DNA of 12,104 nucleotides from Nitrospinae bacterium RIFCSPLOWO2_12_FULL_45_22 (GTDB taxonomy: Bacteria; 2-12-FULL-45-22), in contig MHDQ01000223.1 of NCBI GenBank assembly GCA_001803565.1, positions 1 to 12,104 of the forward strand. The letters run 5' to 3'. The position numbers were made by a program, and so were the translations under genes. The notes under the pieces are model-generated. The model worked only from the letters and a program-made list of their open reading frames with translations, ran no database searches and was not told where the DNA came from. Shown here piece by piece: positions 6,480 through 12,104 of this stretch; the stretch's first letter is position 1, and every line of letters starts with the position of its first letter.

Positions 6480-6935
6480 ATGAAGCTCTCTAAAAAAGGG
6501 GAGTATGCGATAAAGGCATTACAATACCTCTCCTTTAATTACCACAGGGATATCATCCAGATAGCTGAGATCTCTGAAAGGCAGAAGCTCCCCCTCAAAT
6601 TCCTAGAACAGATCCTGCTTGCCCTTAAAAAAGCCGGCATCGTCCAGAGCAAAATGGGCCTAAAAGGTGGTTACCGGCTGGCTAAAGGGCCAGATGAGAT
6701 TTCGCTGGGAGAGGTATTGAGGATAATAGATGGCCCCCCGGACCCGGTAGACTGTGTTCGGCAAAGCGCTAGAAAGGAATGTGGAGAAGAGGATGAATGC
6801 AGCTTACGCATTATTATGCTGGAGGTAAAGGAGGCCATCTGTCAGGTCTTAGACCGGGTAACCCTAGAGGAGGTCTGCAACCGGGCTAAAGAGCTTCAAA
6901 AGAAACACTCTCTGGCCTTGGATTATCAGATCTAA
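6480..6935 (+). CDS. Rrf2-family transcriptional regulator (IscR/CymR-like)
   Basis: This is a small winged-helix repressor or activator of the Rrf2 family. The N-terminus MKLSKKGEYAIKAL and the recognition/wing segment GLKGGYRLAKGPDEISLGEVLRII (about 60-83) are typical. Three cysteines, C92, C101 and C107 (C-X8-C-X5-C), sit where IscR and NsrR bind an Fe-S cluster, so cluster sensing is plausible; C121 and C133 are additional. Length (151) fits the family. The translation start has only G-rich sequence before it (GGGG at 6468-6471, 8 bases away, and GGGGG abutting the ATG), so the ribosome site is atypical. It has its own promoter and overlapping palindrome and precedes sulfite reductase, tusA and cysH genes, which points to control of sulfur assimilation, as CymR does in Bacillus. 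The inducing signal cannot be read from the sequence. Confidence 0.9.
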   Translation: MKLSKKGEYAIKALQYLSFNYHRDIIQIAEISERQKLPLKFLEQILLALKKAGIVQSKMGLKGGYRLAKGPDEISLGEVLRIIDGPPDPVDCVRQSARKECGEEDECSLRIIMLEVKEAICQVLDRVTLEEVCNRAKELQKKHSLALDYQI

Positions 6936-7242: not shown

Positions 7243-8262
7243 ATGGTCAAGGAGATCGAGGCAAGCATAGACCATAATCTGGAGGAAGGGGTAAAAAGGT
7301 CTTTAGAGATCGAGGCCCAAATTGAGGGTAAGACAGGGAAGATGGACCTGAATGAGTTAAAGTCAGGAGGGTTTATCAAGCAGCGTCAAAAAGACCTCTT
7401 TACCGTACGACTCCGTTGTCCTGGTGGCAGAATTCCTTTAAGGAAACTAAAGAAGACCTGTGAGGTAGCAGAGAAATACGGTGGGGAGTATGTCCACCTC
7501 AGCTTCAGACAATCTTTAGAGATACCTTATGTAAATTACTACGATTTCCCTCAAATGATAAAAGAGTTGAGCGAGGAAGAGCAAGTTATCGCTTCTTGCG
7601 GCCCAAGGGTAAGGGTCCCGACGGCTTGTAGTGGCTGCGAATATAACCCTAATGGGCTGACCGACACCCAGAAGATGGCCCAGATGGTCAACGAAAAGTT
7701 CTTTGGTATAAGATGTCCCCATAAATTCAAGACTTCCTTCTCCGGTTGCCCGATAGACTGTGCCAGGACTAGCGAGATGGACCTGGGTTTTCAGGGAGCT
7801 GTGTATCCGCTCTGGGAAGAGGAGAGTTGCACCGGCTGCACTATCTGTGCCTATGCCTGCCTGGAAGGAGCTATTGTAGCTGATTCGGCCAGTGGTAAAC
7901 CAGTATTTAATCAACTCAATTGTCTTTATTGCTCGGATTGCATCAGGGCTTGCCCCACCGGGGCCTGGAAGGCAGGAAAGACCGGTCATATCGTTAGGGT
8001 AGGTGGCAGACATGGCAGGCACCCATTAAATGGCTCTGTTATTGCCCGATTTATCCCTGATGACGATGTTCCCAGGGTAATTGAGGGGGTATTGGAGTGG
8101 TATAACAAAAATGGAGAAGGTAAGGGCCGAATCAGGATAGGGCAACTGCTCATGGAGCCGGGAAAAATGGAGGCTCTTACCCGACATCTAGCGCCTGTAC
8201 TGGGGGATAATGCCTTAAAGAATCCGCGGCCTCCTGAACCAGTTCATATAAACCGATTCTGA
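7243..8262 (+). CDS. Siroheme sulfite/nitrite reductase with two 4Fe-4S ferredoxin clusters (AsrC/Dsr-like)
   Basis: This protein is likely to reduce sulfite to sulfide in the cytoplasm with a siroheme coupled to a 4Fe-4S cluster. Residues about 41-110 form the ferredoxin-like half-domain (GGFIKQRQKDLFTVRLRCPGG, as in AsrC). The siroheme-cluster cysteines follow: C129-X2-C132 and C169-X3-C173 (FSGCPIDCA). Two ferredoxin motifs come next, C196/C199/C202/C206 and C227/C230/C233/C237, each C-X2-C-X2-C-X3-C. The 339 residues fit the small anaerobic reductases, not the large assimilatory CysI. Oddly, the first pair is C-X2-C where C-X5-C is the rule (an additional C119 lies upstream). AGGGGGAG at about 7230-7237 supports ATG 7243. 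It is followed 20 bases later by the tusA-like gene and sits beside APS reductase, so sulfite is a more likely substrate than nitrite. Electron donor subunits (AsrA/B) are absent here. Confidence 0.85.
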   Translation: MVKEIEASIDHNLEEGVKRSLEIEAQIEGKTGKMDLNELKSGGFIKQRQKDLFTVRLRCPGGRIPLRKLKKTCEVAEKYGGEYVHLSFRQSLEIPYVNYYDFPQMIKELSEEEQVIASCGPRVRVPTACSGCEYNPNGLTDTQKMAQMVNEKFFGIRCPHKFKTSFSGCPIDCARTSEMDLGFQGAVYPLWEEESCTGCTICAYACLEGAIVADSASGKPVFNQLNCLYCSDCIRACPTGAWKAGKTGHIVRVGGRHGRHPLNGSVIARFIPDDDVPRVIEGVLEWYNKNGEGKGRIRIGQLLMEPGKMEALTRHLAPVLGDNALKNPRPPEPVHINRF

Positions 8263-8282: not shown

Positions 8283-8528
8283 ATGACTGAATCAGAGAGG
8301 AGAAAAGCAGACGCTACCCTGGATATTTCTCAGGAGGTGTGCCCCATGACCCTGGTTTTAACCAGGCGTAGGATAGAGGCCCTTAACCCCGGGCAGTGTC
8401 TAGAGGTTATTCTATCCGACGGTGAAGCGGTAAGGAGTGTATCCCTGAGCGCTAAGGAAGAGGGGCACCGGATACTGCAAGTGAAGAACGAAGATGGCTT
8501 TATTAGCATTCTAATAGAGAGATCGTAA
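8283..8528 (+). CDS. TusA/SirA-family sulfur carrier protein
   Basis: This 81-residue protein of the TusA fold binds sulfur as a persulfide on a conserved cysteine and hands it to partner enzymes. The signature cysteine-proline is C20-P21 in DISQEVCPMTLVLTRR; the remaining pattern (a glycine before the LEVILSD strand, and GHRILQVKNEDGFISILIE at the end) matches the family. C39 is extra. A strong purine-rich site (AAGGAAGGGGGG) precedes ATG 8283, and only 20 bases separate it from the sulfite reductase stop, so the two are probably co-transcribed. Similar pairs occur in sulfur-oxidising and sulfur-assimilating gene sets, where the carrier may accept or deliver sulfane sulfur. Its stop codon TAA (8526-8528) lies inside the end sequence of repeat element D. 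Confidence 0.85.
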   Translation: MTESERRKADATLDISQEVCPMTLVLTRRRIEALNPGQCLEVILSDGEAVRSVSLSAKEEGHRILQVKNEDGFISILIERS

Positions 8529-8733
8529 CCGTTTAGCCACAAAAAGGCGCAAGAAGCACAAGAAAATTTCTGGTTAAGTTTATAACCACAAAGACACCAA
8601 GGACACCAAGAATTTAATTGACCACCATGAGATGCCATTTTTTGCTTTTCTTTGTGCTCTTTGTGGCTCATTTTATTGGAGTGCTTTTTTGCGGATATAT
8701 TTTTTGGCAACTTTATTTAAGCTAAACAATTAC
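8525..8733. repeat. Terminal-inverted-repeat element D between the tusA-like gene and cysH
   Basis: The ends GTAACCGTTTAGCC (8525-8538) and AGCTAAACAATTAC (8720-8733) pair at 11 of 14 positions. Interior arms are AGCCACAAA... at 8534 onward against ...TTTGTGGCT at about 8660-8668, with GCACAAGAAAA/TTTTCTTTGTGC continuing the stem. A central segment (about 8582-8610) carries a CACAAAGACACCAAGG unit related to element A. It provides the stop codon of the tusA-like gene and ends 22 bases before cysH. It may attenuate or process the transcript between the two halves of the cluster. Confidence 0.75.
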
Positions 8734-8755: not shown

Positions 8756-9469
8756 ATGACTGTAGTGGCCAAAGAAGAAATAGAGGGGATCGGGGTAGAG
8801 TTTGAAAGCAAGAAGGCGCAGGAAATCGTAAACTGGGCCTTGGAGGAGTATGATCCCAATATTGCTTTATCCTGCAGCTTCGGGGCAGAGGATGTGGTAT
8901 TGGTAGATATGATAGCCAAGATCAGACCAGGCAGCCGGGTATTTACTCTGGATACGGACTTTTTCTTTCCTGAGACCCACGACCTTATAAAAAGAATAAA
9001 AGAAAAATATCCCATCGCTTTAGAAGTCTATACCTCTGATATGACGATAGAGGAAATGGAGAAAAAATATGCTAAGGAGCTTTACTCTACAGACCCAGAC
9101 CTCTGCTGTCAAATAAGGAAGCTTCAACCCCTCCAAAAGGCCCTTTCTGGTTTAACGGCCTGGATTACGGGTTTAAGGAGGGATCAAGCCCCTACCCGGG
9201 CTAATACCAAGAAGGTTGAGCTGGATAGCAAGTTTGGCCTGGTAAAGATCAATCCCCTGGCTGACTGGAGCCCGGATCAGGTTTGGGCCTATATCAGAGA
9301 AAATAAGGTGCCCTACAATGTGCTCCATGACCAAAATTATCCCAGTATAGGCTGTGCTCCCTGCACCAAGCCGGTAAAACCCGGAGAAGACCTTCGGACC
9401 GGTAGATGGGCGGGGAAAGGAAAGACCGAGTGCGGCCTCCATCCGGCCGATAACCCAGGGAAGAAGTAA
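8756..9469 (+). CDS. cysH: Adenylylsulfate (APS) reductase, iron-sulfur type, CysH family
   Basis: This cytoplasmic enzyme reduces adenylylsulfate to sulfite and AMP with thioredoxin or a similar reductant. The PP-loop-like site is LSCSFGAED (38-46). The catalytic cysteine is C226 in KTECGLH near the C-terminus. The four cluster cysteines that mark the bacterial APS-specific branch are present: C117-C118 (DLCCQIRK) and C200-X2-C203 (IGCAPC). PAPS reductases of the E. coli type lack these, so APS is the expected substrate. The 237 residues match the family. AGGAGG at 8745-8750, 5 bases before ATG 8756, is a strong ribosome site. The product feeds the upstream sulfite reductase. The next gene starts 2-5 bases after the stop, so the two are translationally coupled. 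Confidence 0.94.
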   Translation: MTVVAKEEIEGIGVEFESKKAQEIVNWALEEYDPNIALSCSFGAEDVVLVDMIAKIRPGSRVFTLDTDFFFPETHDLIKRIKEKYPIALEVYTSDMTIEEMEKKYAKELYSTDPDLCCQIRKLQPLQKALSGLTAWITGLRRDQAPTRANTKKVELDSKFGLVKINPLADWSPDQVWAYIRENKVPYNVLHDQNYPSIGCAPCTKPVKPGEDLRTGRWAGKGKTECGLHPADNPGKK

Positions 9470-9471
9470 AG

Positions 9472-10695
9472 GTGATGAATCCAGGATATCTGAAAGTAAA
9501 ATTGGCTTTGGAAGGAGTAAGGCTTGGTGCCTCCCTGCAAGCTGATGATATTGAAAAACAGATCATCCACCGGATAGAAGGAGACTATCAAGGAGTGATG
9601 ATGATCTTACCTGAGGATATCTGGGCTTATGTCCCCATAGTAGATCATCCTGAACCCCATCTCTATACACTGGTTAGAGAGCGGGATACGTTTTTTATCC
9701 AGCGAGATGAGGAAAGAATCCCTATCCGGCTAGTCCATTATCATAAAACAAATTGTAAAAATCCCTGCCCAAACCAAGATATCCAATCCCTTAAAACAGG
9801 TTTTATCCACGGCAAGTTTATATCCTTCTCCCCATTGTCCTGTTGCCCTTCCCTGGGTTGGCGTACTTACTGCCCTCATCAAGGGCAGCACCATACTATA
9901 TCCGGGAAGCACCTGGCTTTAGAGGCAGTATTAGAAGACATCCAAAAGGCAGTAGATAATGACTGGGGAGAATTTGTCCATCTCCATGTCGGTTTAGTGG
10001 CCACCGAAGATCGAGGCATTACCTTGTTAGAGCCCTATATCACCGCTATAAAAAGGCGGTTTAATACCCTAATAGCAGTAGAAATAGACCCTCCAACCAC
10101 TAATGACTGGATTGACCGGACTTATGCCCTTGGTGTGGATTCTATAAGTTATAATATAGATATTTTTAACCCCCCTTTATTTCAAAAGATCCACCCCGAG
10201 CGGGAGGCATTGATCGGCCGGGAACGATACCTGGAAGCATTGGCTTATGCGGCAGAAATATTCCCTGCCGGGACCGTTACCAGCCAATTAATCCTGGGCT
10301 TAGAGCCCAAAGAGTGGACCTTGACAGGTATTGATACTCTGACTAAACTTAGGATAGTGCCTCTATTGCCCTTACCCTTATTAGGTACCTGGGCCCGCAA
10401 AGAGATAGCCAGGGGAGATCTCCTATCCCTTGAAGATATAATTGAAATAGGCGCCCATCTTTACTGGGCAGTAAAAAAGAATCGGGTGAGGGTGAATTGG
10501 ATGAATTTTGGTGGCCATATCCTGACCCCTTTGGATGGTAGGTTCTTTGCGGCCGAGAAGGCCCGGCTCCAGGTAGCCCTTCATAATATCTACACCTCTA
10601 AGCTGGGGGGTAAGGTCCAGGTGGGTTTTTCCAACCTGAGGCGAAGATTAAGAGTGAAAAGGGTCATGGAATCCCTCGATTCTTCTGGATTATAG
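9472..10695 (+). CDS. Radical-SAM-like protein of unknown function with altered cysteine motif
   Basis: I do not recognise a named family. The middle and C-terminal parts resemble radical SAM enzymes of the biotin-synthase type: a beta-alpha repeat with LIAVEIDPP (200-208), YALGVDSISYNIDIFNPPLFQKI (218-240), AEIFPAGTVTSQLILGLEP (261-279) and VPLLPLPLLGTW (296-307). The usual C-X3-C-X2-C cluster is not intact. All five cysteines lie in residues 95-134: C95-X3-C99-X2-Q102 and C125-X8-C134-X2-Q137, so glutamine stands where a third cysteine would be in either reading. Residues 1-90 form an extra domain rich in strands. The start is GTG 9472 or ATG 9475, directly after the cysH stop, implying translational coupling and a role with APS reductase, perhaps in sulfur handling. 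That role is inference from context only. Confidence 0.6.
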   Translation: MMNPGYLKVKLALEGVRLGASLQADDIEKQIIHRIEGDYQGVMMILPEDIWAYVPIVDHPEPHLYTLVRERDTFFIQRDEERIPIRLVHYHKTNCKNPCPNQDIQSLKTGFIHGKFISFSPLSCCPSLGWRTYCPHQGQHHTISGKHLALEAVLEDIQKAVDNDWGEFVHLHVGLVATEDRGITLLEPYITAIKRRFNTLIAVEIDPPTTNDWIDRTYALGVDSISYNIDIFNPPLFQKIHPEREALIGRERYLEALAYAAEIFPAGTVTSQLILGLEPKEWTLTGIDTLTKLRIVPLLPLPLLGTWARKEIARGDLLSLEDIIEIGAHLYWAVKKNRVRVNWMNFGGHILTPLDGRFFAAEKARLQVALHNIYTSKLGGKVQVGFSNLRRRLRVKRVMESLDSSGL

Positions 10696-10705
10696 AAGAG
10701 AAGAC

Positions 10706-10880
10706 GTTCTTCTAGAAACCACAAATTATACAGATTTTTACAGATACACCCAGGTTAATTAGAAGTCAGGAGTCAGAATTCAGAATAGAAGTTGGTTGTC
10801 CTTTCATGCTGGTTATTAATTCTGACTCCTGTATTCCCTAAATAGTATAATCCGTGTGCATCCGTGGCTATATCTAGCTA
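10706..10880. repeat. Nested inverted repeat upstream of the anion transporter gene
   Basis: The strongest part is a perfect 14-bp inverted pair, CAGGAGTCAGAATT at 10767-10780 and AATTCTGACTCCTG at 10818-10831, around a 37-base loop. The outer arms, ACCACAAATTATACAGA-like sequence after 10717 and TATAATCCGTGTGCATCCGTGG at about 10846-10867, pair imperfectly. It fills most of the gap between the radical-SAM-like gene and the transporter. TATAAT at 10846-10851 with CTGACT 18 bases upstream of it could be a weak promoter for the transporter. Confidence 0.6.
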
Positions 10881-10889
10881 GTTCTTACC

Positions 10890-12104
10890 ATGGAAAGAGG
10901 GCCAGAAGCAGAAATCTTCAAAGAAGAAATATATATAGACCGTCGCCCCCTACCGCTCCTTCTGTTCCTGGCTTACAAACGGGGTCTTGTCCTCATTTTA
11001 GCCTTCCTCCTCTCGGGGATTATCCTGCAATTACCTGCCCCAGTGGGATTATCCTTAGCGGGGCAGAGGTGTTTAGCTATCTTCAGCCTCTGCCTTATCT
11101 GCTGGATAACCAATGCCCTCCCTCTGGCTATTACTAGCCTGATGGCCATGGGCCTGTTAGCCCTGTTGAGGGTATTGGAAAGCAAAGAGGTATTTGCCCT
11201 CTTCGGTAATGAGGCAGTATTTTTTATACTGGGGGCCTTTATCCTGGCTGCCGCCCTGATGAAGACCGGTTTGAGCAGCCGGATAGCCCTCTGGCTCCTA
11301 AATAGGTTCTCTACCAGCCCAGCAAGGCTCTTGTTAGGCATTTTACTTTCTGCTGCCTTCTTATCCTGTTGGATGCCAGAGCATGCGGTAGCGGCCTTTC
11401 TCTTCCCGGTAGTATTAGAGATTACGCAGGCCTTAGGGCTAAAGATAGGGAAGAGTCCTTATGGTACGGCCCTATTTTTGGCCTTAGCCTGGGGCTCTAT
11501 TATCGGCGGGGTGCAGACCTTTCTGGGCGGGGCAAGGAATGTCCTGGCTATAGGTATACTGCGGGAGTTTTCTGGCCAGCAAATCGGTTTTCTGGAGTGG
11601 ATAATAGCGGTCTGGCCCATAGTCTTATGGAATTTGATTATAGCCTATCTGATCTTGGTTCGGGCCTTCCCACCAGAAATCTCTGACATAAGGGGAGCCG
11701 TACGGGTATTGCAAGAGAAGCAACTGGCCAGAGGGAAAATTACCGGGGAAGAGAAGAGGGCCTTGTTCATCCTGCTCCTTACTATAACTGCCTGGGTATT
11801 CCTGGGGCACAGAATAGGGTTGGCCACTATTGCCATAATATCAGCCGTAGCCCTTTTTCTCCTTAATATTGTCTCCTGGCATGATGTAGAAGATTATGTG
11901 AATTGGGGGGTAATATTGATGTATGGTGGGGCCATTGCCCTCGGGGTAGCTCTAGCCAAAACTGGTGCTGGACATTGGGCAGTTACTTCCTTCATCACCC
12001 AATGGCAGCCATCCCCTGCTAGCATAATAGCTGTTTTGGTGATAATTTCTATATGTCTAACCGAGGCAATGAGTAATTCTGCGGTGGTAGCTATGATCCT
12101 TCCT
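10890..12104 (+). CDS. DASS/SLC13-family anion transporter, C-terminus beyond window
   Basis: This is a multi-spanning inner-membrane permease of the divalent anion:sodium symporter family, whose members carry dicarboxylates, citrate or sulfate. It is open for 405 codons and has no stop in the window. Family landmarks include WITNALPLAITSL (72-84), FILGAFILAAALMKTGLSSRIALWLL (112-137) and SNSAVVAMILP (395-405), which is the second SNT-type sodium-site motif. At the first SNT position (about 162-166) the protein reads MPEHA, and the usual GTPPN is GGARN (213-217), so cation coupling may differ. An in-frame TAG at 10875-10877 makes ATG 10890 the first possible start, although it has no clear ribosome site. 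Following APS and sulfite reductase genes, sulfate or another sulfur anion is a reasonable substrate guess; dicarboxylate is the alternative. Confidence 0.82.
   Translation, partial: MERGPEAEIFKEEIYIDRRPLPLLLFLAYKRGLVLILAFLLSGIILQLPAPVGLSLAGQRCLAIFSLCLICWITNALPLAITSLMAMGLLALLRVLESKEVFALFGNEAVFFILGAFILAAALMKTGLSSRIALWLLNRFSTSPARLLLGILLSAAFLSCWMPEHAVAAFLFPVVLEITQALGLKIGKSPYGTALFLALAWGSIIGGVQTFLGGARNVLAIGILREFSGQQIGFLEWIIAVWPIVLWNLIIAYLILVRAFPPEISDIRGAVRVLQEKQLARGKITGEEKRALFILLLTITAWVFLGHRIGLATIAIISAVALFLLNIVSWHDVEDYVNWGVILMYGGAIALGVALAKTGAGHWAVTSFITQWQPSPASIIAVLVIISICLTEAMSNSAVVAMILP

Follow-up and report, generated by a model that had tools for sequence, protein, structure and literature searches.

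A radical-SAM-fold protein with an incomplete cluster motif next to a probable sulfate transporter, and its clusterless relatives

The window, that is, the whole stretch of DNA analysed here, corresponds to the complete contig G000:C223 (12,104 bases) of a genome that is 85% complete and distributed over 321 contigs. Its genes encode, in this order, an Rrf2-family regulator, a small sulfite reductase, a TusA-family sulfurtransferase, CysH, the radical-SAM-fold protein under study (P0001) and a transporter of the DASS family (Table 1). The sequence of the CysH product contains the CC and CxxC elements of the [4Fe-4S] APS-reductase type. The stop codon of cysH lies at 9467-9469, leaving 2 or 5 nt to P0001 depending on whether translation of the latter starts at GTG 9472 (407 aa) or at ATG 9475 (406 aa), and the DASS gene starts 194 nt downstream of P0001.

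Table 1. Coordinates of genes and sequence features in the window
Feature	Position	Strand	Evidence
Rrf2-family regulator	6480..6935	+	Pfam PF02082, 1.2e-38
Small sulfite reductase with ferredoxin domains	7243..8262	+	Pfam PF01077, PF03460, Fer4
TusA-family sulfurtransferase	8283..8528	+	Pfam PF01206, 6.7e-19
Imperfect inverted repeat, TusA/cysH gap	8535..8668		arms of 31 nt, 71% complementary
cysH, APS/PAPS reductase	8756..9469	+	Pfam PF01507, 1e-52
P0001, radical-SAM-fold protein with incomplete cluster motif	9472..10695	+	intact ORF, NF045502 match, AlphaFold2 model, VIA
C95-X3-C99, cysteines unique to P0001	9754..9768	+	alignment; pLDDT under 50 at 91-104
Remnant of the C-X8-C-X2-C cluster loop, CCPSLGWRTYCPHQ (C124, C125, C134, Q137, 407 numbering)	9841..9882	+	alignment to 21-25 intact relatives
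Imperfect inverted repeat, P0001/DASS gap	10762..10836		arms of 24 nt, 83% complementary
DASS-family transporter of sodium-coupled anion type, probably for sulfate; truncated at the end of the contig	10890..12104	+	TIGR00785, 3.3e-67

Comparison with NCBIfam revealed that residues 4-297 of P0001 match the model NF045502 ('variant_rSAM') with an E value of 1.3e-30, yet the score (106.6 bits) is below the curated cut-off of 125 bits and the protein is one cluster cysteine short. The four intact relatives tested all scored above this cut-off (128-211 bits); four clusterless members besides P0001 were tested as well, and all of them, like P0001, scored under it. The match to Pfam Radical_SAM was below threshold, as were those to LipS2 (3e-5 over 93 residues, far below cut-off) and, in part of its length, to TIGR04043, the MSMEG_0568 family of radical SAM proteins (E 3.7e-12; 45.9 bits, far below the cut-off of 303.7). 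No BioB or LipA model was listed for P0001 in NCBIfam at E values up to 10. The same genome encodes a fragment of a second NF045502-type protein (L038 1-582, G000:C86, at a contig edge), which scores 154 bits, above the family cut-off, and ends before the cluster motif.

The AlphaFold2 model of P0001, obtained from a 55-row alignment (mean pLDDT 82.7, pTM 0.85), had lipoyl synthase as its best VIA match (Z 16.7, rmsd 3.5, 229 residues), followed by HydG, ThiH, biotin synthase, NifB and HydE (Z 14-16), and much the same list of structures was retrieved with the model of the intact homolog from genome G171 (Z up to 18.6). The best PDB matches are all radical-SAM enzymes, and the predicted fold of P0001 is a partial TIM barrel of the radical-SAM type, as a previous reading of this DNA made from the sequence alone (the sequence-only reading) had anticipated. 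No particular function is suggested by these matches, because their Z values are too close together. Although lipoyl synthase, HydG, ThiH, HydE and biotin synthase are alike in fold to P0001 (VIA Z 14-17, rmsd 3.4-4.7 over ~230-250 residues), they share with it 11-18% identity, and their cluster motif, which in most of them is C-X3-C-X2-C, differs from the C-X8-C-X2-C of its family. A radical-SAM fold devoid of radical chemistry is already recognised in the curated 'pseudo' family TIGR04347 (pseudo-SAM/SPASM, NCBIfam), which was met as a weak match of a protein neighbouring a P0001 homolog; this family has the SPASM architecture, and P0001 does not match it.

We use the name RSL for the sulfur-cluster branch of the NF045502-type family that contains P0001, as defined in this analysis. 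The branch has conserved residues of its own (PP, YA, W342 and RR), mostly missing from the rows of the wider family. P0001 keeps 63 of the 82 columns considered conserved, that is, present in at least 90% of the intact RSL rows; these correspond to 44 of 54 RSL-specific columns and 19 of 28 columns shared with the wider family. Identity to intact RSL members is 39-42% over nearly the full length. As judged from the alignment, these family-specific residues identify P0001 as a member of the RSL branch, and the genomic context of the branch is also found in the window (SiR-TusA-CysH-P0001-DASS).

The intact RSL loci comprised that of G171, 18 further loci from the same phylum, a Myxococcota contig (L031) and genome G725, the genomes compared being a sample that includes many draft assemblies. 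The gene order at these loci is mostly ThrC-SiR-TusA-MoaD/ThiS-CysM-JAMM-ThiF/MoeB-RSL-DASS-USP-CysC-CysH-Sat, although in some genomes members are absent or truncated by the end of a contig; conserved stretches of this sulfate-assimilation cluster are found at L032 210-12891, L101-L118 and L195 2905-10726. The RSL member of the cluster has no specific family name in NCBIfam. The DASS gene directly follows RSL in 22 of the 24 sulfur-type loci, window counted, the exceptions being G282 and G493 (near contig end), and CysH immediately precedes RSL in the window only. The constant partner of RSL is the DASS transporter, not cysH, and the link of RSL with sulfur assimilation is supported. The proximity to cysH had been taken as translational coupling pointing to a dedicated role in sulfur assimilation, with the proposal to see whether homologs also neighbour cysH: the short gap and the association with sulfur genes stand, but a dedicated partnership of P0001 with cysH was discarded, since immediate adjacency is confined to the window contig. 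Characterised sulfate transporters of bacteria are found among the DASS proteins (PMC5840216).

The intact RSL clusters resemble the CysO/CysM/Mec and HcyS/HcyD sulfur-carrier pathways in that they likewise hold a MoaD/ThiS-type carrier, a JAMM peptidase, a ThiF/MoeB E1 and CysM. To our knowledge, no radical-SAM protein is known in those sulfur-carrier-protein pathways, and the part of the literature that was searched contained no paper that describes a radical-SAM gene of this kind within sulfur-carrier clusters, and none on MSMEG_0568 or TIGR04347. JAMM-peptidase-like genes occur at contig edges of the window's genome (L165 3-332; G000:C53 8637-8780), so that a sulfur-carrier pathway may exist in this genome, split by the assembly.

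Members of the wider family that were examined carry the motif C-X8..11-C-X2-C, and the exact form C-X8-C-X2-C is present in 25 of 25 intact RSL sequences. In P0001 only two of the three family-motif cysteines are found, leaving the three-cysteine [4Fe-4S] ligand set incomplete. Its five cysteines (C95, C99, C124, C125 and C134, 407 numbering) all lie within 40 residues, with none elsewhere, a clustering that has a chance of 0.0004 by shuffling. The sequence-only reading had pointed out this clustering together with two triplets ending in glutamine, C95-X3-C99-X2-Q102 and C125-X8-C134-X2-Q137, whose CAA codons would be more than one base away from cysteine codons; both spacings are exact, and the Q137 codon matches TGC at none of its three bases. 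Of the two, the second triplet alone matters, because the motif of the family is C-X8-C-X2-C and not the C-X3-C-X2-C that had been assumed as the ancestral one. The alignment rules out C95-X3-C99 as an ancestral cluster motif: the relatives have T-x-x-G and no cysteine in this segment, so the first triplet does not derive from the cluster motif.

In the ungapped register (C125-X8-C134-X2-Q137), the third ligand of P0001 is a glutamine. The register favoured by pairwise BLASTP and by a segment profile equates C125 with Cys1 and C134 with Cys3, and the position of Cys2 then falls in a three-residue gap of P0001. On either alignment, one of the three cluster ligands is absent from P0001, and which one depends on the register; the earlier claim of an incomplete motif holds to this extent, while the absence of the third cysteine in particular is a property of the ungapped register. 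A cluster-loop profile derived from the intact relatives scored 4.6 bits in the annotated frame of P0001 and negative values in the other frames, indicating that compensating frameshifts are not the cause of the loss. A frameshift or local misassembly hiding a cysteine was also rejected, as the other frames do not match the profile of the relatives, and a search of the other reading frames of P0001 found no cysteine that would restore the motif.

Two further groups of RSL homologs were found to be devoid of the cluster motif. In genomes G030 and G177, which belong to one family, a homolog without the motif has a MoaD-type gene on one side and DASS on the other. In the phylum of G006, RSL homologs were detected in 56 of 77 genomes (57 matches, one of which, in G537, is of the wider canonical type), and the motif was wholly absent from all 44 sequences examined. 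The genes of this phylum form the block Mpl - RSL - another radical-SAM gene - peroxiredoxin - UPF0182, apart from the sulfur genes tested; DASS was not found beside RSL in this phylum and occurs elsewhere in those genomes, without the sulfur markers tried. The synteny is phylum-wide (L033 4390-11324; L119-L138 except L136), and the second radical-SAM gene has a C-X3-C-X2-C motif; the two genes may represent an active radical-SAM protein paired with a pseudo one. As for P0001 itself, the search for close relatives gave only weak matches in one other genome of its phylum, and a contig search gave one relative, which is intact. The homolog of G286 (L062, G286:C2 4521-5682) is in two pieces in adjacent stretches, perhaps by a frameshift or as a split gene.

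The dN/dS values of clusterless pairs from the G006 phylum (0.05-0.10) were like those of intact pairs (0.06-0.13), and that of the G030/G177 pair was 0.30. The low values indicate that the clusterless members are maintained proteins. These data bear on the possibility that P0001 is a decaying gene or an assembly or sequencing artefact, as might be suspected of a single copy on a long branch (1.23) in a fragmented assembly (321 contigs, 85% complete). Against this, the reading frame is open over 406 codons, up to the C-terminal end of the family, the retained family-specific residues amount to 44 of 54, the motif appears in no other frame, and clusterless relatives are under strong purifying selection. 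We consider this explanation very improbable; the refuting case envisaged by the sequence-only reading, an isolated decayed copy among intact homologs, does not agree with the existence of other lineages that lack the cluster and keep the gene. P0001 is probably still under selection.

The number of losses was addressed on two trees. Parsimony gave three changes of motif state on both; starred branches enforce two of them on the first tree and a single one on the second. AU tests did not reject a single clade of all clusterless rows (p 0.26), nor the grouping of P0001 with either of the other clusterless groups (p 0.18 and 0.20), and the long branch of P0001 (1.23 changes per column) has no firmly supported sister. 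From these phylogenies, one to three cluster losses fit, and parsimony favours three. Adaptation to oxygen was discarded as a simple cause of the loss, because heme-copper oxidase genes also occur in most genomes with an intact motif, and a clear one is missing from most of the clusterless G006 phylum.

The conserved positions lost by P0001 coincide in 14 of 19 cases with those lost by the G006-phylum clade (Fisher p 0.003), and the overlap with the losses of G030/G177 was not significant (p 0.37); if the losses share ancestry, the overlap would be partly inherited. F131, C247, G249, S288, R309, P329 and E359 (G171 numbering) are lost in all three clusterless groups, so that, in addition to the cluster loop, parts of the C-P-G and R-P motifs are affected. 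The G-L-E-P-x-E motif on the SAM side is intact in P0001. This motif, the two remaining motif cysteines and the spare cysteines close by would be compatible with a still active radical-SAM enzyme, in which C95, C99 or C124 (or a His or Gln) completes the set that holds the [4Fe-4S] cluster. We regard such activity as improbable: the superfamily-invariant glycine of CPG and the arginine of RP are also lost, as in the motif-free relatives, and we know of no established radical-SAM enzyme with a substituted cluster ligand. With one of the three cysteines missing from its [4Fe-4S] site and further invariant residues lost, P0001 has most likely given up radical formation.

A different question is whether the remaining cysteines serve another purpose. 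P0001 may carry a metal or cluster site made of the two motif cysteines and the three others nearby, in keeping with the metal site of another kind that the sequence-only reading had suggested from the clustering. In an explicit version of this idea, the Cys/His-rich stretch would have become a replacement site binding zinc or a differently held Fe-S cluster, with a new metal-dependent or sulfur-relay function, the candidate ligands being C95, C99, C124, C125 and C134 together with H89, H91, H113, H136, H140 and H141 (407 numbering). Residues 85-142 (406 numbering) contain five cysteines and six histidines, 11 of the 21 Cys and His residues of P0001 and every one of its cysteines (p about 0.001 by shuffling), and a longer comparable segment of intact relatives has 3-4 Cys and 0-4, mostly one, His. 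However, this is a composition argument from one sequence whose new cysteines occur in no relative, and the other clusterless lineages gained no such stretch. Furthermore, inside the P0001 model, pLDDT drops below 50 only in the segments concerned, 91-104 (C95/C99 segment) and 125-142 (cluster loop). In the intact G171 model, the block corresponding to the C95/C99 segment has a pLDDT of about 91-96, and the start of the cluster loop has values of 89 and then 74, versus 49 and 43 in P0001. We therefore hold a replacement metal site with a new function to be rather unlikely as the main explanation.

The explanation that we favour on balance, with some confidence, is that P0001 descends from a radical-SAM enzyme of sulfur assimilation as a functional, non-radical protein, which may have a replacement metal site. 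It builds on the computed fold, family, missing ligand, gene context, other clusterless relatives and retained family-specific residues. P0001 would be a divergent member of the radical-SAM family of sulfate-assimilation clusters, paired with the DASS anion transporter. Most likely it assists the uptake or assimilation of sulfur without radical chemistry, in a putative accessory or regulatory role; its barrel would bind either a partner protein or, as ligand, SAM or a sulfur metabolite. SAM is among the end products of sulfur assimilation, and with G-L-E-P-x-E and the core of the barrel retained, P0001 could bind it; feedback sensing on the neighbouring transporter would thus be one concrete version of this role.

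In a wider sense, we put forward, as a speculative proposal that we hold to be more doubtful than the reading of P0001 itself, that a hitherto overlooked radical-SAM component, linked to the uptake of sulfate, belongs to sulfate-assimilation gene clusters with sulfur carriers, and that its radical chemistry is dispensable. As many as three lineages would have lost the iron-sulfur cluster and retained the protein: in the lineage of the window a novel Cys/His metal site would have taken its place, and in another the protein would occur phylum-wide at a new genomic address. Intact RSL, for which no specific curated family name exists, is an unexplained component of a sulfate-assimilation cluster that is widely conserved. 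Matches of fold or domain alone are insufficient to annotate such proteins as radical-SAM enzymes. The lineages that have the protein without the cluster separate the role of the scaffold from that of the radical chemistry, and the function is therefore testable by comparing intact and clusterless versions.
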